From NCBI GenBank assembly GCA_963169045.1, contig CAUJDF010000003.1, forward strand, positions 62,001 through 126,000: a stretch of 64,000 nucleotides of DNA. The letters are read 5' to 3'. A program made the translations under genes and the position numbers. Below are positions 1 to 59,458 of this stretch, one piece after another. This stretch comes from Myxococcota bacterium (GTDB taxonomy: Bacteria > Myxococcota_A > Bradymonadia > UBA7976 > UBA1532). The notes below the pieces were generated by a model, which worked only from the letters and a program-made list of their open reading frames with translations, was not told where the DNA came from and made no database searches. Every line of letters starts with the position of its first letter. Positions within the stretch are counted from its first letter, which is position 1.

Positions 1-2804
1 CCGAGGACGAGGCGCCGAAGAAGAAGAAGCGCCCGCCGACGCCGACGCTCGGGCGCGTCGGCGTGAACCTCTCGAAGCAGGCGGCGGCGCACGACCTCGA
101 CCATGCCTTCGGCCGCGACGCGCCGCTGGCCGATCTCATCGCCCGGCTGCGCGCCCCGGGCGGCCTGGCGCTGGTGATCATCGGCGAGTCCGGCGTGGGC
201 AAGACGGCGCTGCTCGACGAGCTCGTCCATCGCCTGCGCGCCGACGAGCACCTGAAGGACCGCCCGGTGTGGTTCGCCGATGCCAACCGCCTCGTGGCCG
301 GCGACGGTGGCTTCGGCGAATGGCAGCGACAATGCCTCGACATCGCCCGCGAAGCCATCGACGCCGAAGCCATCTGGTACCTCGGCAATCCGCTGGCCCT
401 GCTCGACGCCGGCAAGTCCGAGCACTCGGACCAGAACGTGGCGCAGGTGCTCAAGCCGTACCTCTCGGGCCGCGAGCTCACGGTCATCGCCGAGTGCACG
501 CCGCGCGCGTGGGCGCAGGTGGAGCTGCGCGAGGCGGGCTTCGCGCGCCTGTTCGTGCCGTACCGTCTCGAGGAGCCGCCCCCGGCCGAGGCGCACGACA
601 TCCTGGCCGCCGTCGCCCGCCAGCTGCGCGAGGACACCGGCGTCGAGCTGCGCCCCGACGGCCTGCGCGCGGTGGAGGATCTGGCCGAGCGCTTCCGCGG
701 CGACCAGAGCCGCCTCGGCCACGCCGCCCACTTCCTGCGACGCGTCGTCGACGAGGCCGCGCTGCGCGCCGAGGGCCGCACCGTCGCGCTCGACCGCGGC
801 GCCGTCGTCGACCGCTTCTGCGCCGAGACCGGCATGCCCGCGTTCCTGGTGCGCGACGACCTGCCGCTCGACCCCGACGCCCTGCACGCTCACTTCCGCG
901 GCCGCCTCATCGGTCAGGACGAGGCCGTCCGCCGCATGACCGACCTCGTGGCGCTCGTGAAGGCCGGCCTCTCCGACGTGCGACGCCCGCTCGGCTCGTT
1001 CCTCTTCGTCGGCCCCACCGGCGTCGGCAAGACCGAGATGGCCAAGGCGCTCGCCGAGCTGCTCTTCGGCCGCGGGCGCGAGCATCTGTTGCGCTTCGAC
1101 ATGGGCGAGTTCGTGACCGCCGACAGCGTGCACCGCTTCCTCGGGGACGCCGGCCAGCCCGGCTCGCTGATCGCCCAGGTGCGCCGCTCGCCCTTCGCGG
1201 TGCTGCTGCTCGACGAGATCGAGAAGGCGCACCCGGCGCTCTTCGACGTGCTGCTGCAGGTGCTCGGCGAGGCGCGGTTGACCGACCAGGCCGGCCGCAC
1301 CGCGGACTTCCGCAACACCGTGGTCCTGATGACCTCGAACCTCGGCGTGGAGACGTTCCGGCGCAGCCCCGGCTTCGGCGGCGAGGCGCCCGGCTCGCTC
1401 ACCGAGCACTTCGTCGGCGAGGCGCGCCGCTTCTTCCGGCCCGAGCTGTTCAACCGCATCGACCACGTCGTGCCGTTCATGCCCCTCGAGCGGCAGGCCA
1501 TCGATCGCATCACCACGCGCGAGCTCGATGCCTTCCTCGGGCGTGAAGGCATCCGCCAGCGCGGCCTCGACGTGAGCCTCGAAGAGGGACTGCCCGACTG
1601 GCTGGCCGAGCGTGGCGTGGACCCGCGCTACGGCGCGCGGCCGCTGAAGCGCGTCATCGAGGCGCGGCTCGCGGCGCCGCTGGCGCGGTATCTGTCGGGC
1701 GCCGAGGCGACGCCGGCGGTGCGCGTGGAGACGGCGGACGACGCGCTGCGGTTCGTCGGACGGGACGCGCGCGCCGGCAGGGCGGCCGGCCGCGAGAAGC
1801 TGCGCCGGCAGCTGGCCGAGGTGGGCCGCGTGCGCCAGCAGCTCCAGCAGTGGCGCGCCTCGCAGCCCTACACCGACCTCGCCCACGGCCTGCGCCTGCT
1901 CGACCGCCTGACGCAGACGCGCGGCTTCTGGGACGACGCCGCCGCCGCCGACGCCCGCATGCGTCGCGCCGAGCCCGGCCGGCAGCTGCACCATGCCTTC
2001 GAGGCGCTGTGGACGCGGGTCGGCTCCCTCGAGGACATGGCGTACGAGGCGTGGTACGAAGGCAAGGACGACCCCCTCCCGCTGCTCGAGCAGGAGCTGG
2101 CCGCGGTGACCGAGACGCTCCGCGGCCTCGAGCTCGACCTCTATGGTCGCCGGTTCCGGCGCCCCGACGCCGCGATGCTCTACCTCGAGGGGCCCGGGGC
2201 CGCGCTGCGGGCGATGGTCGACCTCTATCTGCGGCTCGCCGTCGAGCGGCAGTGGGCGGTGGCCGGCTGGTTCGCCGACGAGCGCGCCGCCGAGACGCGC
2301 AAGCCGCGCAACGAAGAAGCGGCACGCCGCGGGCGCCCTCGCCGCAGCAAGGACCCGGAGGCGTGGCTCTGGTACGTGCGCGGCGGGATCGACGCCGCGT
2401 CCGACAACCCGATGAAGCAGCAGGAGCGGCTGCTGCGGGCGCTGACCGACGAGGCCCCCGGGCAGCCGCGCGCGCTGCGCTTCACGGGGCCGCACGCGGC
2501 CGCGCTGTTGTCCCGCGAGACCGGCGTGCACCTCGTCGTCAACGCGGGCAGCGACGACGTGAAGGTCCGCTTCGCCGACGACCCGGAGCCCACCCACCCG
2601 CTCGATGTCATGCGCGCCTGGGACCTGAAGCGGCGGCGCGTCATCCACCATGGGAGACACACCGTCGAGGACCTCGAGCTGAGTCAATCGCTGCCGCTGG
2701 AGCCGCGGGTGCACCGCCTCTACGAGCGCTTCATGCAGCAGGGGTTCTACGCGGCGGTCTTCGGGGAGATGCACGCCCTCTTCACCGCGCGGGGGCCGGC
2801 ATGA
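1..2804 (+). CDS. Clp-type double AAA+ ATPase with release-factor (PCRF)-like C-terminal domain, 5' end outside window
   Basis: The frame (codons from base 3) is open to the left edge. Its paralogues have about 200 more N-terminal residues, so the apparent GTG at 63 is not the start. The first AAA+ domain has Walker A GESGVGKT (183-206), but its Walker B position reads IWYLGNP (372-392), without the acidic pair. The second is ClpA/ClpC-like: Walker A GPTGVGKT (1011-1034), Walker B LLLDE (1203-1217), the FRPELFNRID finger and a YGARPLKR sensor 2. There is no ClpB coiled-coil middle domain. The GYVG pore loop after the RFLG motif is replaced by a short GDAGQPG segment. From about 1800 to 2740 an extension of about 310 residues follows the order of RF2: an FWDD helix, an acidic stretch, LELDLYGRRF, LYLEGPGAALRAMVDLYLR and SRETGVHLV (ETGVH at 2517-2531). 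No GGQ is present. Its stop overlaps the next start (ATGA). The Clp assignment is firm; the PCRF homology rests on my reading of motif order. Confidence 0.9.
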   Translation, partial: EDEAPKKKKRPPTPTLGRVGVNLSKQAAAHDLDHAFGRDAPLADLIARLRAPGGLALVIIGESGVGKTALLDELVHRLRADEHLKDRPVWFADANRLVAGDGGFGEWQRQCLDIAREAIDAEAIWYLGNPLALLDAGKSEHSDQNVAQVLKPYLSGRELTVIAECTPRAWAQVELREAGFARLFVPYRLEEPPPAEAHDILAAVARQLREDTGVELRPDGLRAVEDLAERFRGDQSRLGHAAHFLRRVVDEAALRAEGRTVALDRGAVVDRFCAETGMPAFLVRDDLPLDPDALHAHFRGRLIGQDEAVRRMTDLVALVKAGLSDVRRPLGSFLFVGPTGVGKTEMAKALAELLFGRGREHLLRFDMGEFVTADSVHRFLGDAGQPGSLIAQVRRSPFAVLLLDEIEKAHPALFDVLLQVLGEARLTDQAGRTADFRNTVVLMTSNLGVETFRRSPGFGGEAPGSLTEHFVGEARRFFRPELFNRIDHVVPFMPLERQAIDRITTRELDAFLGREGIRQRGLDVSLEEGLPDWLAERGVDPRYGARPLKRVIEARLAAPLARYLSGAEATPAVRVETADDALRFVGRDARAGRAAGREKLRRQLAEVGRVRQQLQQWRASQPYTDLAHGLRLLDRLTQTRGFWDDAAAADARMRRAEPGRQLHHAFEALWTRVGSLEDMAYEAWYEGKDDPLPLLEQELAAVTETLRGLELDLYGRRFRRPDAAMLYLEGPGAALRAMVDLYLRLAVERQWAVAGWFADERAAETRKPRNEEAARRGRPRRSKDPEAWLWYVRGGIDAASDNPMKQQERLLRALTDEAPGQPRALRFTGPHAAALLSRETGVHLVVNAGSDDVKVRFADDPEPTHPLDVMRAWDLKRRRVIHHGRHTVEDLELSQSLPLEPRVHRLYERFMQQGFYAAVFGEMHALFTARGPA

Positions 2805-5800
2805 TCCTGCGCGTCCCGGTGATGGTGTCGGTGAACGAGCGCGGCGTGCACGACGTGACGCTGCCGGGCTGGTCGCTGCGCAGCTTCCACGGCACGAGCC
2901 TGTCGGAGCTGCTCGACGACGTGGCGCTGCACCTGATGGAGACGCTGCCGCAGGCCTCGCCGCGCGGCCTCGAGCGCCTGCGCGTGTGCCCCGACCTGGA
3001 GCTGCGGCGCGTGAGCGTCACCGTCGAGCTGCCCGGCCCCGACAAGAAGAAGCCGACGTGGACGGGCCGGCTGGCGGTGGTGGTCACGCGCTGGCGCGAC
3101 GAGGACTTCGACGAGGTGTTCGTGCCGCGCCTGTCGACGGCGGCCTTCGCGGTGGCCTCCGGCGCCGAGCTGACGGCGGGCCTGACCGGCTTCGTCGAGG
3201 AGCTCGCGAAGGGCGTCCCGCGCGCGGTCCTCGACGCCGCCGTCTGCCGCAAGGACGACTACCTCGACGTGCTCGAGGTCGACGCCGAGCTGCCCACGGT
3301 GCTGCCGAGCCGCCCGGCGAAGAAGCGCCGCGAGAAGAAGAAGGTTTCGCGGCCCGACGAGCCGAAGAAGCCGCGCAAGCGCGAGCTCGTGATGCCGCGC
3401 ACGCTGCGCGAGGTGGGCGCCGACCTCACGCACCAGGCGCTCGACGGTCGGCTCCCGCAGGCCCACGGCCGGGATGCCATCGTCGAGCAGGTGCTGCGTC
3501 AGATCCGGCGCCCCGGGGCGGCGGTGCTGCTCGTCGGCCCGCCGGGCGTGGGCAAGACCGCCATCGTGCACGAGGTCGTGCGGCGCATGGCCGCCGAGGG
3601 CCTGCCGCTGCACGAGCGCACCGACGTGTGGTCGGTCGAGAGCAACCGCTTCATCGCCGGCATGATGTACGTCGGCGCCTGGGAGCAACGCTGCCATCAG
3701 ATGGTCGAGGAGCTCGAGCAGCGCAACGACGTCGTCTACGTGCCCGACCTGCCATCGCTCGTCTACACCGGCCGCTCGGCGCACTCGGACGCCAACGTCG
3801 CGCTCTTCCTCGAGCCGCATCTGCGCCGCGGGGCGCTGCGCATCCTCGGCGAGTGCACGGCCGAGCGCCTGGAAGCCACCCGCGCCGAGGCGCCCGGCTT
3901 CTTCGCGCGCTTCCAGGTCGTGCCGGTGCCGGCGCTCGACGAGCGACACACGCTGCAGGTGCTCGTGCAGACGACGCGGGCCCTCGAGGCGCGCGAGCCG
4001 GTGGTCGTCGAGCCGGAGGTGCTCGAGGGCGTGCTCGCGCTCACCCGCCGGTTCCTGCCGCGCCAGCCGCACCCGGGCAAGGCGGTCACGCTGCTGCGCG
4101 GCCTCGTCGACGACCACCAGAAGGTCGAGCACGACGCGTTCGGCCGGCGGCGCGTCGCCCGCGACCACCTCGTCGATCACTTCGGGAGACAGACGGGGCT
4201 GCCTGCCTTCGTGCTCTGGGAGAAGCAGGCGCGCCCCTGGGAGGAGGTCGCCGCCCACTTCGCGCGCCGCATCATCGGCCAGCCGCTCGCCAGCCAGGCG
4301 GCGGCCGAGGTCGTCTGCACGCTCCAGCAGGGCCTCAACGACCCGGAGAAGCCCCTGGCGACGATGCTCTTCGTGGGACCGACCGGCGTCGGCAAGACCG
4401 AGACCGCCAAGGCGCTCGCCGAGTATCTGTTCGGCCACGCCGACCGGCTCGTGCGCTTCGACATGAGCGAGCTTCGCGATCCCTGGTCGGCGGCGCGTCT
4501 GTTCGGCGATCGGCTGCAGCCGGAGGGCGAGCTCACGCGCCGCGTGCAGCAGCACCCGTTCTCGGTCGTGCTCTTCGACGAGATCGAGAAGGGCCACCCG
4601 CGTGTCTTCGACGCGCTGCTGCAGGTGCTCGGCGAGGGCCGGCTGACCAACGCCGCCGGGCGCACCACCGACTTCTGCAACACGATCCTGGTGATGACGA
4701 GCAACCTCGGCGTGCGCGACGCGCAGCACGGGCTGGGCTTCATGGGGACGTCGGAGGCCGCCGAGGGTCAGCACTACCGCAAGGCCGCCGAGGCCTTCTT
4801 CCGCCCCGAATTCTTCAATCGAATCGACCGGATCGTGGCCTTTCGCAGCCTCGGCCGCGAGGACCTCGCGCCGCTCGTCGCGCGCACGCTGGAGGGCCTG
4901 CTCGGCCGGCGCGGGCTGCGGCGCAGCGGCGTGCTCGTCGAGGTCGAGCCGGCGCTGCCCGACCTGCTCGTGGCGCAGGGCTTCGATGCGCGCTACGGAG
5001 CGCGCTCGCTGCGGCGCGCGCTGGAGCAGCGCCTCACCGTGCCGCTCGCGCGGCAGCTCGTGTCGCAGCCGGTGGATCGCACCACGCGGGTGGAGCTGTA
5101 TCGCAGCGGGGACGACGTGGGCATGCGCCTCGAGGCGCTCGAGGACGCGCCCGCCGAGCCGGGCCTGCCACCGCCGGCCGCGGACTGGGCGACGTTCCTG
5201 GCCGGCTACCACGCGGCGCGGGCCGTGGCGACGGCGCTGGCGTCCCACCCCACGCTGGCCGCGCTGCGCGAGGAGCACGCGGCGCTGCTCGAACGCTTCA
5301 ACGCCGGCGCCCTGGCGCCCGACGGTCTCGACCGGCTCGGTGTGACCGGGGAGGCGATCGACGGCGTCGCCGGTCTGTTCGAGGATCTGGACGATCTCTA
5401 CGAGACCTGGCTGTTGCCCTACGAGGTGGTCGAACAGACCGAGCTCGTGCCTTTCGACGGCCGATACATCCGCAACGAGGACGCGCGCCGGCAACGGCCG
5501 CAGCTCGTGGTGCAGTCGATGATCGCGACCGCCGACCGCGAGGCGCAGCTGCCGCAGGCGGCGGCCGCCCTGGCGTCGCTGGAACATCGCGTCGCGTGGG
5601 TGCGCCGCCTCCTCCTGGTGCTCGTCGAGCCGGTCGAGGCGGTCGTGCTGCGGCTGCTGCCGGTGACCGAAGGCGCCGGATCCCGCGCCCTCGCGCGCCG
5701 CCTGATGAGCGCCATGGCCTCCACGTGGCACCCCTGGGGGCACGTGACGCTGTGGGTCCGCATCGCCGGCGAATGGCAGGTCGGCCCGGATGAACCCGCG

Positions 5801-6190
5801 GATGCCCTGGTGGCCGGCGATCCCGAGCTGCAAGACCGCTCGCGGTTCGGCAAGCCGCCGGAGGTGGCCGCCTGGGAGGCCTGCGCCGTCGAGGTGCGCG
5901 GCCACGGCGTGCGCCGACTGGTCGAGGCCGAGGTCGGCTACCACCTGCAGTCCCGGCACGCGGGACCGGACCTGGTGCTCGATCTGGTGCGCGCCGAGAC
6001 GGTCGGTGACGCGCCGGCACGACTGACCGGGCTCGACCGCGAGCTGGCCGACTTCCGCGAGGCGCGCCGCGCGGGCGCGCCGTGTGCCGATCCCTTGCCC
6101 GCGCTGCTCGTCCGCCGCCGCTACGCGGGCAGCGAGTCCCTGGCGGACGTCGCGGCCGAGGCGCTGCTGGCGCGCCTGGTGGGAGGCTGA
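2801..6190 (+). CDS. Clp-type double AAA+ ATPase paralogue 2, with diverged PCRF-like C-terminal extension
   Basis: 1129 residues; the ATG overlaps the previous stop by 4 bases, implying translational coupling. Residues 1-180 form an N-domain unlike the Clp-N repeat, followed by a Lys/Arg-rich linker (about 185-210). The first AAA+ domain has Walker A GPPGVGKT (246-253) and a retained MMYVG pore-loop tyrosine, but its Walker B reads VVYVPDLP instead of hhhhDE. The second AAA+ domain is intact for catalysis: GPTGVGKT (526-533), VLFDEIEK, FRPEFFNRID and YGARSLRR. It lacks the GYVG pore loop (GDRLQPEGELT instead). A GLGFMG loop sits where ClpA/ClpC/ClpX carry the ClpP-binding [LIV]G[FL] tripeptide. 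Residues about 785-1129 are an extension whose VVLRLLPVTEGAGSRALA and EVGYHLQSR segments match RF2 PCRF positions in order and spacing, more weakly than in the upstream gene. Confidence 0.88.
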   Translation: MILRVPVMVSVNERGVHDVTLPGWSLRSFHGTSLSELLDDVALHLMETLPQASPRGLERLRVCPDLELRRVSVTVELPGPDKKKPTWTGRLAVVVTRWRDEDFDEVFVPRLSTAAFAVASGAELTAGLTGFVEELAKGVPRAVLDAAVCRKDDYLDVLEVDAELPTVLPSRPAKKRREKKKVSRPDEPKKPRKRELVMPRTLREVGADLTHQALDGRLPQAHGRDAIVEQVLRQIRRPGAAVLLVGPPGVGKTAIVHEVVRRMAAEGLPLHERTDVWSVESNRFIAGMMYVGAWEQRCHQMVEELEQRNDVVYVPDLPSLVYTGRSAHSDANVALFLEPHLRRGALRILGECTAERLEATRAEAPGFFARFQVVPVPALDERHTLQVLVQTTRALEAREPVVVEPEVLEGVLALTRRFLPRQPHPGKAVTLLRGLVDDHQKVEHDAFGRRRVARDHLVDHFGRQTGLPAFVLWEKQARPWEEVAAHFARRIIGQPLASQAAAEVVCTLQQGLNDPEKPLATMLFVGPTGVGKTETAKALAEYLFGHADRLVRFDMSELRDPWSAARLFGDRLQPEGELTRRVQQHPFSVVLFDEIEKGHPRVFDALLQVLGEGRLTNAAGRTTDFCNTILVMTSNLGVRDAQHGLGFMGTSEAAEGQHYRKAAEAFFRPEFFNRIDRIVAFRSLGREDLAPLVARTLEGLLGRRGLRRSGVLVEVEPALPDLLVAQGFDARYGARSLRRALEQRLTVPLARQLVSQPVDRTTRVELYRSGDDVGMRLEALEDAPAEPGLPPPAADWATFLAGYHAARAVATALASHPTLAALREEHAALLERFNAGALAPDGLDRLGVTGEAIDGVAGLFEDLDDLYETWLLPYEVVEQTELVPFDGRYIRNEDARRQRPQLVVQSMIATADREAQLPQAAAALASLEHRVAWVRRLLLVLVEPVEAVVLRLLPVTEGAGSRALARRLMSAMASTWHPWGHVTLWVRIAGEWQVGPDEPADALVAGDPELQDRSRFGKPPEVAAWEACAVEVRGHGVRRLVEAEVGYHLQSRHAGPDLVLDLVRAETVGDAPARLTGLDRELADFREARRAGAPCADPLPALLVRRRYAGSESLADVAAEALLARLVGG

Positions 6191-6191
6191 C

Positions 6192-8444
6192 GTGATCGAG
6201 CGCTTCCATCTGTTCGTGCGCCAGCATGCCAACGACTGGCTCACCGCGTCGGTGCTCACGCACCCCGACTACGCCGCGTTCGGCCCGTCGATCGGCCCGC
6301 TGCGCGAAGAGCTGGCCGCGGTGCTGGCCGACGAGCTGGCCGCGGGCGCCATCGCGCCGGGCGAGCACTTCTTCCCGGAGCTCCGGCGGCGCACGCTGAC
6401 GCTCGACCTGAAGGCGGTGCAGCACGACCGGCTGATCCACGTGCCGATGCGCTTCACCCTGCTCTGGCGGCCGCTGTCCGAGACGGACGATCTGTTCGAG
6501 GTGCGCATCCCGCGCATCGGCGAGACCTTCCGCATCCTCGGCGAGGACAACGTCGAGCCCTGGGCCGAGGAGGTGCTGCGCGGGCGCTTCCACCTCGCGT
6601 CCGTGGAGACGCTGCTCGGCTACCTTCACGAGCGGGGCGAGCGCGTCGAGCCGCTCGACGTCACGTGGTCGCGCGGACAGTCCCGCGTCTCGCGCAAGCG
6701 CCGCGAGCGCGACACGCACCTCGACCTCGAGCCGCCGGACGCCACCCCGCTGGCCACGGTGGGCACGAACCTCGTCGCCGCCGCCCGCGACGGCCGCCTG
6801 CCGCGCGCGCACTTCCGCGACGCCGAGCTGCGCCAGCTCGCCAGCATCCTCGCCGGGGGCAGCGCGCTGCTCGTCGGCGCCTCCGGCGTCGGCAAGACCG
6901 CGCTCGTGCACGAGCTCGCGCACCGGGTCGCGCGTGGCCTCGTGCCCGGGGCGCTCGAGGACGCCCCGCTGTGGCACGTGACCGGCGGTCGCATCATCGC
7001 CGGCATGAAGTACCTGGGACAGTGGCAGGCGCGGTGCCTCGCCGTGATCGAAGAGATCCGCCGCGAGCGAGGCATCCTCTTCGTCGACCACCTGCTCGAG
7101 CTCGTGAGCGCCGGCCACGGCGAGGACGGCCTGGGCGTGGCGCAGATGCTCCTGCCGCCCGTCGCGAGCGGCGAGCTGACGGTCGTCGCCGAGGCCACGC
7201 CCGACGCGCTGCTGCTCGCCGAGCAGAAGGCGCCGGCGTTCGTGCGCGCCCTCCGCCGCCTGCCGGTGCCGCCCTTGGACGCGGAGCGGGCCTACGAGGT
7301 GCTCGCCCTCTCTGCCGCCGCGCTCGAGAAGCCCAACAAGGTGCAGTTCACGCCGCCGGCGCTGTCGCGCGCGCTGGATCTCATCGCGCGGTTCGGCGAC
7401 GCCGACGCGCTGCCCGGCGCCGGCCTCGCCCTCATCGAACAGATGGCGCGCCTGCCCGGCGGCCGCCGCACGCTGCACCCGGCCGACGCCGTGACGGCGT
7501 TCTCGCGCGCGAGCGGCTTCTCGCGCGTGCTGGTCGACCCCGAGGAGCGCCTCGACCCCGACGCCGTGCGCGCCTGGTTCGAGGCCCGCCTCATCGGCCA
7601 GCCGGATGCCACCGAGCGGCTCGCCGACCTCGTGCTGCTGCTGAAGTCCGGCCTCAACGACCCGGACCGCCCCCTCGGCTCGTTCCTCTTCATGGGACCC
7701 ACCGGCGTCGGCAAGACCGAGTCGGCGCTCACGCTCGCCGAGCATCTGTTCGGCGACCGCGATCGGCTCGTGCGCTTCGACATGAGCGAGTACGGCTACC
7801 CCGGCAGCGCCACGCGCCTGGTCGACGGCCCCCGCGGCGAGGGCGACCTCACGCGGCGCGTGCGCGAGCAGCCGTTCTGCGTGCTGCTGCTCGACGAGAT
7901 CGAGAAGGCCGATCCCGAAGTGTTCGACGTGCTGCTGCAGGTGCTCGGCGAGGGCCGCCTCACCGATGCCACCGGGCGCACCGTGCGCTTCCGCCATGCC
8001 ATCGTCGTCATGACCAGCAACCTCGGCGCCGGCGCCGACCGCCGCCCCGGCCTCGTGCGCGGCCCCGACGTGCCCGCCGCCGACCACTACCGCCAGGCGG
8101 CGCGCGCCTTCTTCCGCCCCGAGCTCGTCAACCGCATCGACTTCCTCGTGCCCTTCCGCCCGCTCGACCGCAAGGCCCTGCGCGACATCGCCCGCCGCAT
8201 GCTCGACGACGCGCTCGGCCGCGAAGGCTTCGCCCGCCGCGGCCTCGCCGTCACCTACGACGACAGCGTCCTCGACCTGCTCCTGTCCCACGGCCACGAC
8301 CCGCGCTACGGCGCCCGCCCCATGAAGCGCGCCATCGAGCAGCACGTCCTCGTGCCGCTGTCGCGCCGCCTCGTGCGCGGTGAGGCCGCGCGCCGCCTCG
8401 CGCTGACCGCGCGCGACGGGGCGGTGCTCGCCGACGCCCCCTGA
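6192..8444 (+). CDS. Clp-type double AAA+ ATPase paralogue 3, no C-terminal extension
   Basis: 750 residues; the GTG start lies 1 base after the previous stop. The N-domain (about 1-160) aligns with that of paralogue 2: beta-rich stretches around VHVPMRFTLLWRPLSETDDL match the segment ending in VVVTRWRDEDFDEV. A basic RKRRERD linker follows. The first AAA+ domain has Walker A GASGVGKT (229-236), pore-loop MKYLG, and Walker B ILFVDHLLEL, in which the Asp is kept and the catalytic Glu is His. The second has GPTGVGKT (502-509), LLLDEIEK, FRPELVNRID and YGARPMKR, so it should hydrolyse ATP, but the GYVG loop is again replaced (VDGPRGEGDL). The protein ends soon after the D2 small domain, unlike its two upstream relatives. 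The three probably work together, possibly as a mixed hexamer. No substrate can be read from the sequence. Confidence 0.9.
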   Translation: MIERFHLFVRQHANDWLTASVLTHPDYAAFGPSIGPLREELAAVLADELAAGAIAPGEHFFPELRRRTLTLDLKAVQHDRLIHVPMRFTLLWRPLSETDDLFEVRIPRIGETFRILGEDNVEPWAEEVLRGRFHLASVETLLGYLHERGERVEPLDVTWSRGQSRVSRKRRERDTHLDLEPPDATPLATVGTNLVAAARDGRLPRAHFRDAELRQLASILAGGSALLVGASGVGKTALVHELAHRVARGLVPGALEDAPLWHVTGGRIIAGMKYLGQWQARCLAVIEEIRRERGILFVDHLLELVSAGHGEDGLGVAQMLLPPVASGELTVVAEATPDALLLAEQKAPAFVRALRRLPVPPLDAERAYEVLALSAAALEKPNKVQFTPPALSRALDLIARFGDADALPGAGLALIEQMARLPGGRRTLHPADAVTAFSRASGFSRVLVDPEERLDPDAVRAWFEARLIGQPDATERLADLVLLLKSGLNDPDRPLGSFLFMGPTGVGKTESALTLAEHLFGDRDRLVRFDMSEYGYPGSATRLVDGPRGEGDLTRRVREQPFCVLLLDEIEKADPEVFDVLLQVLGEGRLTDATGRTVRFRHAIVVMTSNLGAGADRRPGLVRGPDVPAADHYRQAARAFFRPELVNRIDFLVPFRPLDRKALRDIARRMLDDALGREGFARRGLAVTYDDSVLDLLLSHGHDPRYGARPMKRAIEQHVLVPLSRRLVRGEAARRLALTARDGAVLADAP

Positions 8445-8448
8445 GCGC

Positions 8449-9435
8449 GTGCATCCCATCGGCACGCAGTGGCTTCGGCGGCAGGCGGTCGGCGCGCCCG
8501 GGACGTACTCGGCGTCGCTCGGCGCGCTCGCGTTCGTGCTCACGCTCGGCGCCGGCGCGGTGACCGCCGCCGGCTTCCTCGGCGAGCTGCACTGGCTGCT
8601 CGATCTCTGGAGCCATTTCCGCGTCCACGCAGCGGCGACGCTGGCGGTCGCGACGCTGCTCGCGATGCTCGCCGGCCGCAAGCGCCTGGCGGCGACGGCG
8701 TTCGCGCTCGCCGTCGCGAACGCGGCGGTCGTCGCGCCGCTGTTCGCGGGGCGGCGCGAGGCGCCCGCCGGCGCGCGCACGCTGAAGATCGTCGTCGCGA
8801 ACGTGCTGACGGAGAACACGGACGCCGCGGGCCTCGCCGCGTTCATCCGCGCGCGCGACCCGGACGTCGTCGGCCTCGTCGAGGTGAGCGACCGCTGGCT
8901 GCGCGACCTGGCGCCGCTGTTCGCCGGCTGGCCGGAGCCCGTCGCGGAGCCGCGCCCGGACAACTTCGGCGTCGCGCTGTTCTCGCGCGTCCCGATGACG
9001 GGACGCATCGAGCGCTTCGGTCCGATCGGCGAGCCGACCGTCGTCGCGCGCCTCGAGTCCGCCGCCGGACCGCTCACCGTCGTCGTCACGCACCCCATCC
9101 CGCCGATGTCGCGCGAGACGGCCGCCGCGCGCGACGCGCACCTCGACGCGCTGGCGGCGGCGCGCCCGGCGTGGGGGCGCTCGGCGGTGGTGATGGGCGA
9201 TCTGAACGCGACGCCGTGGTCGGCGCCGTTCCGCCGCCTCGTCGCCCGCGCCGGCCTGCTGGACGCGCGCCGCGGCTTCGGCGTCGTGCCGACGTGGCCG
9301 GCGAACCTGCCCGTCCCGGGCATCCCGATCGACCACGTCCTGCTCACCCCGGAGCTCGTCCCGCTGCGCTTCGAGCGCGGCCCCGCGATCGGCTCGGACC
9401 ACTTCCCGCTGTTCGTCGAGATCGCGCTGCCTTGA
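8449..9435 (+). CDS. Membrane-anchored endonuclease/exonuclease/phosphatase (EEP) family protein
   Basis: 328 residues with a GTG start 4 bases after the third Clp gene, so probably the same transcript. Three hydrophobic segments (about 22-42, 57-76 and 79-100) precede an EEP domain. The metal-site motifs appear in order: NVLTEN (about 119), LVEV, THPIPPMSRE, GDLNATPW (250), IDHVLL and GSDHFPL (315). The family includes nucleases, sphingomyelinases and inositol phosphatases. The N-terminal triple-TM layout is common in uncharacterised bacterial members, and the catalytic domain would face the periplasm if it follows them. Substrate is unknown. Its place directly behind the AAA+ genes makes it a possible partner or effector, but that is inference. 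Confidence 0.85.
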   Translation: MHPIGTQWLRRQAVGAPGTYSASLGALAFVLTLGAGAVTAAGFLGELHWLLDLWSHFRVHAAATLAVATLLAMLAGRKRLAATAFALAVANAAVVAPLFAGRREAPAGARTLKIVVANVLTENTDAAGLAAFIRARDPDVVGLVEVSDRWLRDLAPLFAGWPEPVAEPRPDNFGVALFSRVPMTGRIERFGPIGEPTVVARLESAAGPLTVVVTHPIPPMSRETAAARDAHLDALAAARPAWGRSAVVMGDLNATPWSAPFRRLVARAGLLDARRGFGVVPTWPANLPVPGIPIDHVLLTPELVPLRFERGPAIGSDHFPLFVEIALP

Positions 9436-9487
9436 CCCCCACTGGCCGCGTACGGCCGCGTGCTATCCTGGCAGCGGAGGTGTCGCG

Positions 9488-10054
9488 ATGTCGGTCCGAG
9501 CCGAGCGCGAGGTTCGGCGTTTCACCGTGGACGAGGTGGAGCGGATGGTCGAGGCCGGGATCATCCGCGAAGATGAGCCGCTCGAGCTCCTCGAAGGAGA
9601 GCTTGTCGTCGTGAGCCCGCAGGGACCACCCCACGCCAGCGTCACCAGTCTTCTGCACGACGCCGTCCGCGACGCGTACCGTGGCGCGTTCGCCGTGCGC
9701 GAAGCGAAGCCGATGGTGGCGGGGCCGCGCGGCCTCCCCGAGCCGGACATCGCCGTCTTCCGCGGGACGCAGCGCGACTTCCTCTCGCGGCACCCCCGCG
9801 GCGACGAGGCGGTGCTCGTCGTCGAGGTCGCCCACACCTCCCATGCCGAGGACCACGAGAAGGCGGCGGTCTACGCGCGCGCCGGGGTGCCGGTGTACTG
9901 GCTGCTCGACCTCCCGAACCGGCGCCTCGAGGTCTACGCGGCGCCGCTGGCGGACGAGGGTCGCTACGCACTCGTCCGGCTGCTGCGCGAGGACGAAGAG
10001 GTCGAGCTGCCGGCGCTCGACGTCCGCTGGCGCGTCGCCACGCTCCTGCCCTGA
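9488..10054 (+). CDS. Uma2-family (DUF820) PD-(D/E)XK nuclease-like protein
   Basis: 188 residues with a GGAGGT ribosome-binding site just before the ATG. The Uma2 fold is recognisable: an N-terminal helical segment with LLEGELV, then LPEPDIAVF (active-site PD), LVVEVAHTS (E-x-V) and EKAAVYARAGVPVYWLLDL (Lys plus the typical VxEYWLxD-like strand). Uma2 proteins are very numerous in cyanobacteria, Planctomycetes and Myxococcota. They are restriction-endonuclease-like, but few have a known role. It lies 52 bases after the EEP gene and may be an independent unit. Its TGA stop abuts the stop of the opposite-strand gene with no gap. Confidence 0.88.
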   Translation: MSVRAEREVRRFTVDEVERMVEAGIIREDEPLELLEGELVVVSPQGPPHASVTSLLHDAVRDAYRGAFAVREAKPMVAGPRGLPEPDIAVFRGTQRDFLSRHPRGDEAVLVVEVAHTSHAEDHEKAAVYARAGVPVYWLLDLPNRRLEVYAAPLADEGRYALVRLLREDEEVELPALDVRWRVATLLP

Positions 10055-17320: not shown

Positions 17321-20173
17321 CTACTGCTGGACGGCTTCGCTGCTGATGCTGATGCCGATCTCGATGGGGTCCTGGGAGCCGTCGGCGGCGGCGCTCACCT
17401 CGAGGAAGTAGCCGCGGCCGACGAAGGGCGTGGCGCCGCGCACGCCGGGGGTGACGTACTGGGCGCCGGCGGCGGGCGTGAAGTCGTACTGCATCAGGAA
17501 GCCGCGGCCGGTGCGGCCGACGCGCTCGCCGCGGTCGACCACGTTGCCGAGCTGGTCGACGATGCGGATGGAGTGGGACGGCGGCACCTCGAGGATGACC
17601 TGCGTGCGGATGTCGTCGAAGAACCAGCCGCCGCAGTCGATGCACGCGGGGATGGCCACCATGTCGAGCGGGTGCACGAAGGTGTGGGCCTCCTCGGGGA
17701 TCTCGGGGCCGCACGCGCTGCCCGGGATCGGGATCTCGAGGTCGTCGCAGGCGCTGCCGATGCCGTCGCCGTCGCAGTCCTCCTGGTCGGGGTTGGCGAC
17801 GCGCACGCAGTTGTCGCAGACGTCGCCCACGCGGTCGCGATCGCCGTCGCGCTGGTCGGGGTTGCCCTCGAGCGGGCAGTTGTCGTTCGCGTCGAGGTCG
17901 CCGTCGCCGTCGTCGTCGTTGTCGCAGGCGTCGCCGGCGCCGTCGCCGTCGGTGTCCTCCTGCCCGTAGTTGCGCACGCCGGGGCAGTTGTCGTTCACGT
18001 CGAGGTGGCCGTCGCCGTCGCCGTCGTCGCAGGCGTTGCCCACGCCGTCGCCGTCCGCGTCGGCCTGGTTGCCGTTGGCCACCGTCGGGCAGTTGTCGTC
18101 GGCGTCGAGGTCGCCGTCGTTGTCGTCGTCTTCATCGCAGGCGTCGCCCTGGGCGTCGCCGTCGGCGTTCTGTTGCAGCACGTTCGCGTGGAGCGGGCAG
18201 TTGTCGTAGCCGTCGGTCACCGAGTCGCCGTCGTTGTCCCCGTCGTCGGCGTCCTCCTCCCCGTCGCAGTCGGTGTCGGCGCCGCTCGTGCGCACGCCCA
18301 CCGACGCCCACGCGTTGCGGATCTGGCACACGTCGTTCGCCGTGAAGCCGTGCTTGTCGACGGCGTCCCAGTAGATCGCCCGGCCGACGAAGAGGTCGCG
18401 CGCGTCGGCGAAGCTGCTGTTCGACGTCACGCCGCTGCGCAGCACGCTCAGGTACAGGCGCGCGACCTTGTTGCGGCCGATCGCCTGGATCTGCCGGCCG
18501 GCGTGCGTGTCGCCCTGCATCAGCAGGTACGCGACCTTGTTGGGGATTCCGCTGTTCGTGTGGACGAAGCCCTCGTCGTTGCAGTCCTGCGGGGTCGAGC
18601 CGCACCCGGCCGGGTTGTTCGCCGCGATGGTGCGCAGGCCGACGCCGTCGCCGCTGAGCGCCGCGGTCATGTGGTCCGGCTGGCCGCGGTCCGGCGGGTT
18701 CTGGAAGTCGCGGATGGGGTTCTGGCGGATGTCGTTGGGGATGTCCTCGCCGAGGTCCCAGTCGTCGGGGTCGATCAGCGCGCCGAACACGTCGGCGAAG
18801 CTCTCGTCGAGCGCGCCCGACTGGTTGCGGTAGGCGAGGTTCGCCGCGTAGTTGTCGATGCCGTGAGTGAACTCGTGGGCGACGATGTCGTCGGTGACGT
18901 AGCCCTCGCCGAACGCCGTCAGGCCGCACCCGGGCCGGAACTGCGCGTTGCGCCAGTTGTTGCCGACGTAGACGGTGATCTCCCACTGCCCCTCGTCGCC
19001 GTCCCACGAGTGCAGGCCGCGCGCGTGGAAGAAGTCGAACACCTCGTGCGCGATCTGGTACGCGTGGATGCCGTCGTCGCGCGGGTCGTCGCCCGGCTCG
19101 TAGCCGTCGTTGCCGTCCTCGTCGAACCAGTCGTCGTCCTGCGTCTCCCCCGGCGCCGCCCAGCACGTGTCGCTCTCGGTGAAGGCGGCGGTCTCGACGA
19201 GCAGGTCCTTCCAGTCGCCGTGGGTGGGATCCTCGCGCACGGCGTCCACCACGGTGCCGTCGTGCGCGTCGACGTACACCGTCCACTGGCGCACGCCGAG
19301 GCGCTCGGGCGAGACGGCGGAGAAGCGCCAGACGAGGCGCGGGTCCGGCGCCGCGTCGTGGGCCGCGCCGGCGTCGAGGATGCCGAGCTGCGGCACGCCG
19401 GCGGGGCGCGCGCCGCGGCCGATCCAGAGCGCCGCGGCCTGCTGCGCCGCGACCGGTGTCACGCGCGGCGGCGGGAACGCCGGGATGCGGGGCATCCAGC
19501 GGCCGTTCGTCATGTAGATGCGCTCGGCGTCCATGTGCACGACGAGCTCGCTGTCGAAGACCGGCAGGCCCTCGTGGCGCTGGCGGAAGACGAGGTGCCG
19601 CTCGCCCTCCTCGCCAAGGCTCGACGCCCGGTCGAGGAAGAGCTCCCGCGCCGGGTCCTCGAGCGCGTAGAAGTTCTTGAATTCGCTCAGGAACGCAAGC
19701 GCGTTCGGCACGGCGTCGATCGGGCGCGCGCCGGGGACGGGCACGTCGAGGATGACCGTCGCCGGCACGCCGCGCTCGGTGCGCACCCGCGGGGGGATGC
19801 GCGACGTGGTCGTCAACAGGGCGAGCTCGGCCGAGGCCGGGTCGTCCGGGGGCGGCGGCGGGCCCGCGTCGGGATCGGGGCCGGCGTCCGCGGCGACGTC
19901 GCCGTCCGGCGCCGCGCCGTCGGGCTCCACCGCGCCGTCCGCGTCACCGGCGTCCGCGGCGACCGCGCCGTCCGGGTCGACCGCGCCGTCGGGCGCCGCG
20001 CCGTCCGCGGCGACCGCACCGTCCGGCGCCGCCGCGTCCGGGCGCGCCGCGCCGTCGGGCGTCGCACTCATGTCGACCGCCGGCGCCGCGTCGCCCTGAG
20101 GCGTCTCGTCACCGTTCCCCGCATCGCATGCGCCCAGCGCGAGCAGCGCCAGCGCGAGTCCAGCTCGTCGCAT
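17321..20173 (-). CDS. M4 (thermolysin-like) metalloprotease lipoprotein with thrombospondin type-3 repeats
   Basis: 950 residues. The ATG at 20173 has a GGGAGGAA site and gives lipobox LGAC; an Asp/Ala/Pro linker (about 25-115) follows. Next come an FTP/PepSY-like propeptide (about 130-280) and the M4 catalytic domain with HEFTH at 433-437 and [12 protein letters not shown] supplying the third zinc ligand. Residues about 630-812 hold at least five thrombospondin type-3 calcium repeats ([16 protein letters not shown]-like). The C-terminal part, up to residue 950, is a PPC-like beta domain ([19 protein letters not shown]). It is an extracellular or surface zinc protease, probably autoprocessed and calcium-stabilised. 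The stop codon is followed at once by the HigB remnant. Confidence 0.92.
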
Positions 20174-20260
20174 CGTTTCCTCCCCGAAGTTCGCTGACAG
20201 TATGGGCGACGGCCGGGGCGCCGCCACGACAGACGCGCCCCCGAAACGAGGGGAGGGGCC

Positions 20261-58693: not shown

Positions 58694-59458
58694 TCAGGCG
58701 CGGCGCAGCGCCACGAGCGTCTCGCCGGCGAGGTCGTCGAGCGCGCATGGCTGGTTGTCGGCGAGGCGCCACGCCCGCCACGCGCTCAGATGACGGGTGC
58801 GCGCGACGGCGTCGAGGAGGTCGGCGCCGCGCCAGATGCGCAGGTCGAACTCGTCGACGAGCGCGGGCGGCGCGCCGTCGACGCCCTGCTGGCGCACGGT
58901 GCGGCGCATGCGCTCGTGCCGCGTGGCGTCGCTCCAGGCGATCGTCTCGTACGTGATCCAGCCGCGGCCGCGCGGGCGCACGTCGACCGGTCCGAGCTCG
59001 TAGATGACGCGCGGGCGCGGCGCCTCCTGGTCGGGCTCCGGGAAGAAGATCGTCAGCAGCACGAGGCCGCCGGGGCGCACGTGGCGCTCGACTGCGGCCA
59101 GCAGCGCCTCGAAGTCGTTCGCCTCGCGCAGCATGCACGCCGTGCCCGCCGCCTCGAGCGCCACGTCGAACGGCCCGGTCTCGAAGCGCAGGTCGCGCAT
59201 GTCGCCGTGCAGGATCTCGGCGTCGGGCAGCTTCGCGCGCGCGAGCGCGACCATCCGCGCGGACAGGTCGTTGCCGGCCAGGCGCACGCCCGGCGCGGCG
59301 AACGGCGCCAGCCAGTTGCCCGGGCCGCAAGCCGGGTCCATCACGCTGCGCACGCCGCCGGGGAACACCTCGGCGAGCACCTCGCGGATCAGGGCCTGCG
59401 TCTCGTGGTCGGCCGCGCGCAACGCGTCGTACAGCTCGGGGAAGTCGTAGAGGTCCAT
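58694..59458 (-). CDS. Class I SAM-dependent methyltransferase
   Basis: 254 residues from ATG 59458 (MDLYDFPELYDAL). Motif I SVMDPACGPGNWLAPF, GNDLSARMVALAR (motif II), DAEILHGDMRDL, and FDVALEAAGTACML (motif IV). Topology and the short LYDFPELYDAL start are usual for small-molecule methyltransferases. Substrate unknown. An in-frame extension upstream to 59530 is rejected as it overlaps the sequence after the TolC stop and lacks a good site. Confidence 0.88.
   Translation of the reverse strand: MDLYDFPELYDALRAADHETQALIREVLAEVFPGGVRSVMDPACGPGNWLAPFAAPGVRLAGNDLSARMVALARAKLPDAEILHGDMRDLRFETGPFDVALEAAGTACMLREANDFEALLAAVERHVRPGGLVLLTIFFPEPDQEAPRPRVIYELGPVDVRPRGRGWITYETIAWSDATRHERMRRTVRQQGVDGAPPALVDEFDLRIWRGADLLDAVARTRHLSAWRAWRLADNQPCALDDLAGETLVALRRA

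Follow-up and report, generated by a model that had tools for sequence, protein, structure and literature searches.

A Clp-like AAA+ ATPase with a tail derived from release factor 2, and its co-occurring Clp-like sister, in Myxococcota

The first three genes in a stretch of 64,000 nucleotides from a Myxococcota bacterium (assembly GCA_963169045.1, contig CAUJDF010000003.1, positions 62,001 to 126,000; hereafter the window, part of a 9.0-Mb genome and with a GC content of ~75%) encode Clp-type proteins with two AAA+ modules each. The first of them ends in a tail that is homologous to peptide chain release factor 2 (RF2) and has lost both the GGQ catalytic domain and the SPF codon-reading motif. 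Gene 1 (3..2804, + strand) is cut by the left edge of the window, which holds its last 933 codons; the full open reading frame (L003:6442-9804) encodes 1120 amino acids (aa). Gene 2 (2801..6190, +) encodes a sister double-AAA+ Clp protein of 1129 aa, and its start codon overlaps the stop of gene 1 as ATGA. Gene 3 (6192..8444, +; 750 aa) is a third Clp-like double-AAA+ gene, tail-less in the window. Our tentative reading, to which we give a probability of roughly 0.38, is that genes 1 and 2, joined by gene 3 in some genomes, form a hetero-oligomeric Clp-like ATPase that docks through an RF2-derived tail.

The tail of gene 1 (1770..2801, +) has ~340 residues and comprises release factor domains 1, 2 and probably 4, with catalytic domain 3 absent. 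The earlier, sequence-only reading of this DNA had recognized RF2 by eye in the extension, and the elements it quoted were found where it placed them. Domain-1-like helices occupy 1923..2147 (+), with GFWDD at 1923-1937 and the acidic stretch LEQELAAVTETLRGLELDLYG at 2085-2147. The domain-2-like (PCRF) part follows at 2178..2573 (+), with LYLEGPGAALRAM at 2178-2216 and ETGVH within LLSRETGVHLV at 2505-2537. A short hairpin, VNAGSDDVKVRF (2538-2573, +), stands where RF2 has its SPF/HTSF loop, and a domain-4-like C-terminus reading RRRVIHHGRHTVEDLEL ... YERFM covers 2631..2735 (+). A Clp AAA+ ATPase fused to an RF2-derived module, one that spans domain 1 and the PCRF section of domain 2, is thus borne out.

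On its own, the window's tail has diverged too far for Pfam or PDB searches to place it, matching no Pfam family and no PDB chain at E<=10. Searched against 95 related genomes, it retrieved itself and 14 Clp-sized frames (996-1242 aa), and its only direct match to a GGQ-bearing RF2 among them was weak (L019, E 3.1e-5 for one genome); a scan of genome contigs with the same query gave 17 pattern matches and no relative. As a family, the tails are homologous to RF2, which they prefer over RF1. When the 15 orthologous tails were aligned and their profile was compared with 177,635 PDB sequences, the first 21 matches were all RF2 (E 1.3e-10 to 6.4e-7), RF1 followed only at E 0.003, and unrelated proteins began at 0.03. 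The Pfam check proposed in the sequence-only reading gave nothing for the window tail; of the 15 orthologous tails, 11 matched PCRF at E<=10 (best E 1.2e-6). In hhalign, whose percentages come from pairwise comparisons and not from a calibrated database search, the tail profile reached 97.9% against three release factors; against 17 RF2s, all 15 tails reached 98.7% and the window's own clade of six 97.6%. Reversed or column-shuffled controls of the gene 1 groups stayed at or below 0.71% against RF2, those of all six tail groups at or below 0.75%, and reversed copies in group-against-group comparisons at or below 1.24%. A related locus carries the label Lujinxingiaceae, a family within Bradymonadales, which makes Bradymonadia (Myxococcota) the probable class of these genomes. 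Over the 57 genomes of the class, the 15-tail profile (E<=0.001) retrieved 15 fusions, with E below 1e-93, and also RF2-sized genes (frames of 349-552 aa). Some relatives may already be annotated with PCRF in Pfam, and the architecture may sit in databases without comment. Among the papers listed from the open-licence PMC literature, we found no published description of a Clp-RF2 fusion, as judged from titles and abstract openings; excerpts of PMC6514570 and PMC7159879 do not mention one either.

Structure prediction, also proposed in the sequence-only reading, agreed with this kinship for a relative and less firmly for the window. AlphaFold models of the tails were built from only six sequences. 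For the tail of relative L050, modelled with a predicted local distance difference test score (pLDDT) of 80 and a predicted template modelling score (pTM) of 0.70, the first 30 Foldseek matches were all release factors, with RF2 on top (E 3.7e-8). VIA-align, which reports ranges by their end points only, placed residues 9-299 of the model on residues 5-366 of B. subtilis RF2 (Z 14.7, 246 residues, root-mean-square deviation 7.5 A) and residues 129-303 on 103-348 of mitochondrial RF1a (Z 10.8, 138 residues, 3.5 A), the latter range implying a match on both sides of the catalytic domain. De novo three-helix bundles score Z 12.5 on the domain-1 helices in structure searches; since such bundles also score, domain 1 alone is no proof of kinship, and the reach into domain 2 is. 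Release factors are described, in an excerpt of PMC6514570, as having the catalytic domain inserted into the stop-codon-recognition domain, with this module joined to an N-terminal GTPase-interacting domain. Judging by the model, the gene 1 tail appears to fit that layout with the catalytic insert removed, and domain 4 is probably kept, with mixed support from sequence: two of five tails from another class read VKDLRTG in the RF2 register at the domain-4-like site.

Twenty tails were aligned of the 24 gene 1 genes found, four from the second class being left out. In all 20, the codon loop of RF2 (RISPF..RRHTSF), which follows the conserved ExGxH, is replaced by a short hairpin. SPF follows ExGxH in none of them (the letters occur elsewhere in one tail), compared with 13 of 17 RF2s, the remaining four of which carry variants. 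The variant stop-codon motif, SPY or SKF for SPF, belongs to the RF2 genes of L037, L044, L049 and L019 (4/17). The GGQ catalytic insert is absent by alignment, in line with the sequence-only reading; the letters GGQ occur in 3/20 tails, probably by chance, versus 17/17 RF2s. Seventy-four columns are conserved in 15 or more of the 17 RF2s, and 14 or more of the 20 tails keep 13 of these, namely S, F, W, D and A of the FW region, an L, a G, and G, L, E, G, H and R around ExGxHR. The kept residues look like the fold core. As the codon-reading loop, the GAGGTE loop and the GGQ domain are all lost, the tail would be unable, going by established RF2 biology, to recognize stop codons or to cleave peptidyl-tRNA as RF2 does, and is probably not a release factor.

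RF2-like tails also appear on the other Clp genes, with weaker evidence than for gene 1. The sequence-only reading overlooked the one on the adjoining gene 2, a diverged tail (5075..6187, +; VEVRGHGVRRLVEAEVGYHLQSR at 5888-5956) that has no Pfam family of its own. Searched against the PDB as a profile, the gene 2 tails from the window's clade matched RF2 best (E 5e-4). In hhalign, gene 2 tails of the f6 family align with other gene 2 tails at 92.7% and are linked to RF2 only through those of the window's clade. In two relatives gene 3 also appears to bear an RF2-like tail (L055:15781-16602 and L056:15400-16212); the profile of these two lists only RF2 in the PDB (best E 0.004), and hhalign gives 91.5%. 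The window's gene 3 ends right after its second AAA module, and the L055 orthologue, 64% identical, extends ~250 residues further. These gene 3 tails could be either a second acquisition or an ancestral feature that other lineages have lost. A tree groups them with the tails of gene 1, although weakly (support 74/47), and carries a long-branch warning elsewhere.

The Pfam families AAA_2 and ClpB_D2-small match each of genes 1, 2 and 3 in the second of its two AAA modules. In gene 1, the first module (D1; 183..392, +, by motif reading) keeps a Walker A, GESGVGKT (183-206), and one aromatic in its pore loop, GGFGEW (306-323), and has a degenerate Walker B, WYLGNP (375-392). The second module (D2; 984..1715, +, by Pfam and motif reading) is intact in Walker A (1011-1034), Walker B (1203-1229), Arg finger (1434-1463) and sensor 2 (1632-1652), and its pore loop is shortened to LGDAGQPG (1140-1163), without GYVG. 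We surveyed these motifs in 36 family members from 15 genomes (15 gene 1, 14 gene 2 and 7 gene 3 proteins), to which nine from another class were added for a total of 45. All 36 keep the D2 Walker A, Walker B, sensor 1, RPE...R Arg-finger segment and sensor 2, and none has the D1 Walker-B Glu, which has given way to Asp in 13 of the 14 gene 2 proteins. D2 therefore seems built to hydrolyse ATP, and D1 looks unable to. No member (0/45) has GYVG at the D2 loop, where the genome's ClpB reads GAPPGYVGYEEGG and where GYVG is kept at each of the four ordinary Clp loci examined in that genome; the same letters in the tail of one gene 1 protein are there by chance. Threading is doubtful on motif grounds, and of the 'unfoldase' in the sequence-only reading there remain the aromatic D1 loops of gene 3 and of gene 1 in the window's clade, set against the lost D2 motif and D1 Walker-B Glu. 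Genes 1-3 are not the housekeeping ClpB: they score 323.9, 339 and 364.4 bits, respectively, against the NCBIfam ClpB equivalog, whose cut-off is 1232.1, and a ClpB above that cut-off sits elsewhere in the genome. Each protein also has an N-terminal domain of ~200 aa (L003:6442-7071 for gene 1; window 2801-3445 for gene 2 and 6192-6806 for gene 3). Those of genes 1 and 3 match no Pfam family, that of gene 2 gave only a sub-threshold Pfam match to DUF7542 (E 0.03), and the gene 1 N-domain profile hit a single PDB chain, at E 0.47.

Genes 1 and 2 occur together. Both are present in the same 15 of the class's 57 genomes (gene 2 at E 8.2e-50 or better), and again in the same nine of 289 sampled genomes of a second class (gene 1 at E<=1e-16, gene 2 at E<=1e-40). 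Counting genomes as they are, with kinship ignored, the two genes are found together in the same 24 of 346 genomes, from two classes of one phylum, even where they are unlinked; the gene 2 match in G530 covers only query residues 190-437. Gene 2 adjoins gene 1 in 16 of 20 loci and lies elsewhere in the genome in G020, G324, G244 and G185; in G483 it is on another contig. Gene 3 is nearby in nine of the 20 loci (~3 kb away in L051), and two others lie near contig ends. Rough gene calls were compared among 14 loci, the window and the DNA upstream of it; the caller missed several genes, and five loci from outside the class were left out. Clusters of shared neighbours other than Clp genes reached at most four loci in this comparison. 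The window's genome also carries two PCRF genes, taken to be RF1 and RF2, an RF3 match above cut-off and SmpB; RF3 is above cut-off in 48 of the 57 genomes of the class, including 14 of the 15 with gene 1.

Mobile-element and defence connections were likewise sought. No relatives were found on plasmids with the window tail as query, in phages with the L050 tail, or on viral contigs with query A3 (54 pattern matches). PADLOC gave matches to AAA-type candidates (PDC-M37B, DolB and others) with E down to 8e-26, the best stretches lying within the AAA modules, and a defence role, which was considered, found no support there. Directly after gene 3, the window encodes an Exo_endo_phos family protein and a Uma2 putative endonuclease (8449-10054); no neighbour of either type common to the loci was seen in the rough comparison. 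Elsewhere, a multi-domain Mrp/Mbh-type antiporter gene lies upstream of gene 1 and the other Clp genes (L064:9413-12316), and the window holds an M4 metallopeptidase with thrombospondin type 3 repeats (17324-20227, - strand) and a tRNA-Thr (cgt) at 58882-58975.

Taken as a machine, genes 1 and 2, plus gene 3 in some genomes, would be an obligate pair of Clp-like AAA+ subunits, probably assembled into a mixed ring and driven by ATP through D2. Because the motif with which a D2 loop grips a threaded chain is missing, the ring would more likely remodel or switch a bound partner than thread it like ClpB, and the D1 loops could still grip. The RF2-derived tails would be displayed on the ring's C-terminal face as a surface for docking. 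As a first guess, the partner might be something that the RF2 scaffold already touched, such as the ribosomal GTPase centre, RF3 or the ribosome itself.

A number of results speak against this proposal or blur it. The gene 1 tails have diverged strongly, with 19-39% identity to the window's tail. The window tail's model is poor (pLDDT 61, pTM 0.45), and RF2 comes first with it only weakly (Foldseek E 1.3e-3; VIA-align Z 12.8 over 182 residues), with unrelated helical bundles reaching Z 12.5. The sequence signal for domain 4 in the 15-tail profile (0.24%) is below its reversed control (0.53%); the same test gives 51% with the five tails of another class (ten shuffles at or below 1.03%) and 1% with all 20. 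Against RF2 in hhalign, the gene 2 tails from the window's clade reach only 24.8%, and those of the f6 family 1.2%, compared with 0.75% for the reversed control. In Pfam, PCRF was found in none of the four gene 2 and gene 3 tails scanned; the PCRF score for L050 was 16.8 bits, under the cut-off of 24, and the L051 and L054 tails have no PCRF. The case against threading is not clean, as a Tyr occurs in another context in five of 45 D2 loops (gene 3 of L051, L054, L062 and L079; gene 1 of L054) and an aromatic residue sits in the D1 loop of all seven gene 3 proteins, of 7/15 gene 1 proteins (6/6 in the window's clade) and of 2/14 gene 2 proteins. The E limits of the gene 2 census were chosen to separate it from ordinary Clps, and the scoring took in only some of the candidates in each genome; weaker gene-2-like matches, at E 2e-42 and 1.6e-37, occur in G055 and G050, which have no gene 1. 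Finally, the loss of the codon-reading and GAGGTE loops argues against canonical binding to the ribosomal A site, which we regard as doubtful. With the codon loop replaced in 20/20 tails, GAGGTE gone and 13/74 RF2 columns kept, the description of the tail as a 'ribosome-binding-type module' in the sequence-only reading is not supported.

These losses lead to the alternative that we hold every bit as probable as our own proposal: the RF2 fold may have been borrowed as a purely structural or protein-binding tail, serving oligomerization, as a substrate adaptor or as a gate, with the link to the ribosome gone. Sixty-one of the 74 RF2-conserved columns, the codon-reading loop included, are kept in fewer than 14 of the 20 gene 1 tails; the tails diverge fast, what is kept looks like fold core, and domain 3 is absent. 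Against a borrowed tail of this kind stand the joint retention of domains 1 and 2 across two classes and the presence of an RF2-like tail on gene 2 as well and, in L055 and L056, on gene 3. Between tails that touch the translation machine and tails borrowed as plain binding modules, the two readings are level. Chance resemblance of helical coiled-coil sequence, with no homology at all, is by comparison barely credible. It would agree with the window tail matching nothing alone and with helical bundles nearly equalling RF2 for its model, but three profiles put RF2 at the top rather than generic coiled coils, the controls fail, the alpha/beta ExGxHR part aligns too, and the L050 model reaches Foldseek E 3.7e-8.

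The sequence-only reading went further and proposed rescue of stalled ribosomes or a conflict system acting on translation, in which RF2-like docking would steer an unfoldase to stalled ribosomes. We consider this unlikely. The homology to RF2 is true, RF3 is present, the aromatic D1 loops of gene 3 and of some gene 1 and gene 2 proteins leave threading possible, and the pairing of Vms1 with Cdc48, as described in an excerpt of PMC6514570, offers an analogy. Nevertheless, GGQ, the SPF loop and the D2 GYVG are all missing, losses in tail and D2 that make rescue by unfolding less likely; SmpB is already present; the plasmid, phage and viral-contig searches gave no relative; no neighbour beyond the Clp genes was seen to be shared in the rough comparison; and the best stretches of the PADLOC matches fall in the AAA modules. 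A decoy or regulator of termination, whose tail would bind a partner of RF2 (RF3, PrmC or L11) for the ATPase cycle to load or remove, seems to us very improbable. PrmC modifies the GGQ domain, and this target is missing from the tail. In favour of such a regulator, RF3 is above cut-off in 14 of the 15 gene-1 genomes of the class, and the tail retains domain 1, the part described as GTPase-interacting in the same excerpt (PMC6514570).

Release factors are among the most conserved translation proteins, and one stripped of both active ends and turned into the tail of a motor protein is a natural experiment on the rest of RF2. Two diverged Clp paralogues that occur in step, each with an RF2-like tail and each lacking the gripping motif usual in D2, suggest an ATPase machine not yet described. 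New here are the RF2-like tails of gene 2 and, in two genomes, gene 3, together with the matching occurrence of genes 1 and 2.

Among known systems, RF2 (prfB) shares with the gene 1 tail its domain 1 and PCRF/domain 2, and the model of a relative spans RF2 residues 5-366, whereas the tail has neither the GGQ domain nor the SPF/HTSF codon loop and is fused to an AAA+ protein. ClpB, ClpA and ClpV (Hsp100) have in common with genes 1-3 the two AAA modules, the D2 ATPase motifs and ClpB_D2-small. Genes 1-3 differ from them in scoring 324-364 bits versus the 1232 of the ClpB cut-off, in lacking the D2 GYVG and the D1 Walker-B Glu, and in having an unrecognized N domain and an extra tail. Torsins are proteins of the endoplasmic reticulum with a single AAA domain; they have no release-factor module, and unlike theirs the D1 loops of genes 1-3 are partly aromatic. 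They are described in an excerpt of PMC5425593 as Clp-related AAA+ ATPases without aromatic pore loops, and would indicate, as an analogy only, that Clp relatives of this kind exist. Vms1, a release-factor-like eukaryotic protein, works with the AAA+ ATPase Cdc48 (excerpt of PMC6514570), and the likeness lies in this pairing of a release-factor-like protein with an AAA+ partner. Vms1 belongs to the aeRF-1 superfamily and the two are separate proteins, whereas the genes described here encode both parts in one chain, with no hydrolase. A counterpart in principle can still be imagined, although we think it rather improbable: by analogy, a two-subunit Clp ring bearing up to six gutted RF2 modules might dock on terminating or stalled ribosomes, or on the GTPase centre, and remodel them by ATP hydrolysis without hydrolysing peptidyl-tRNA.

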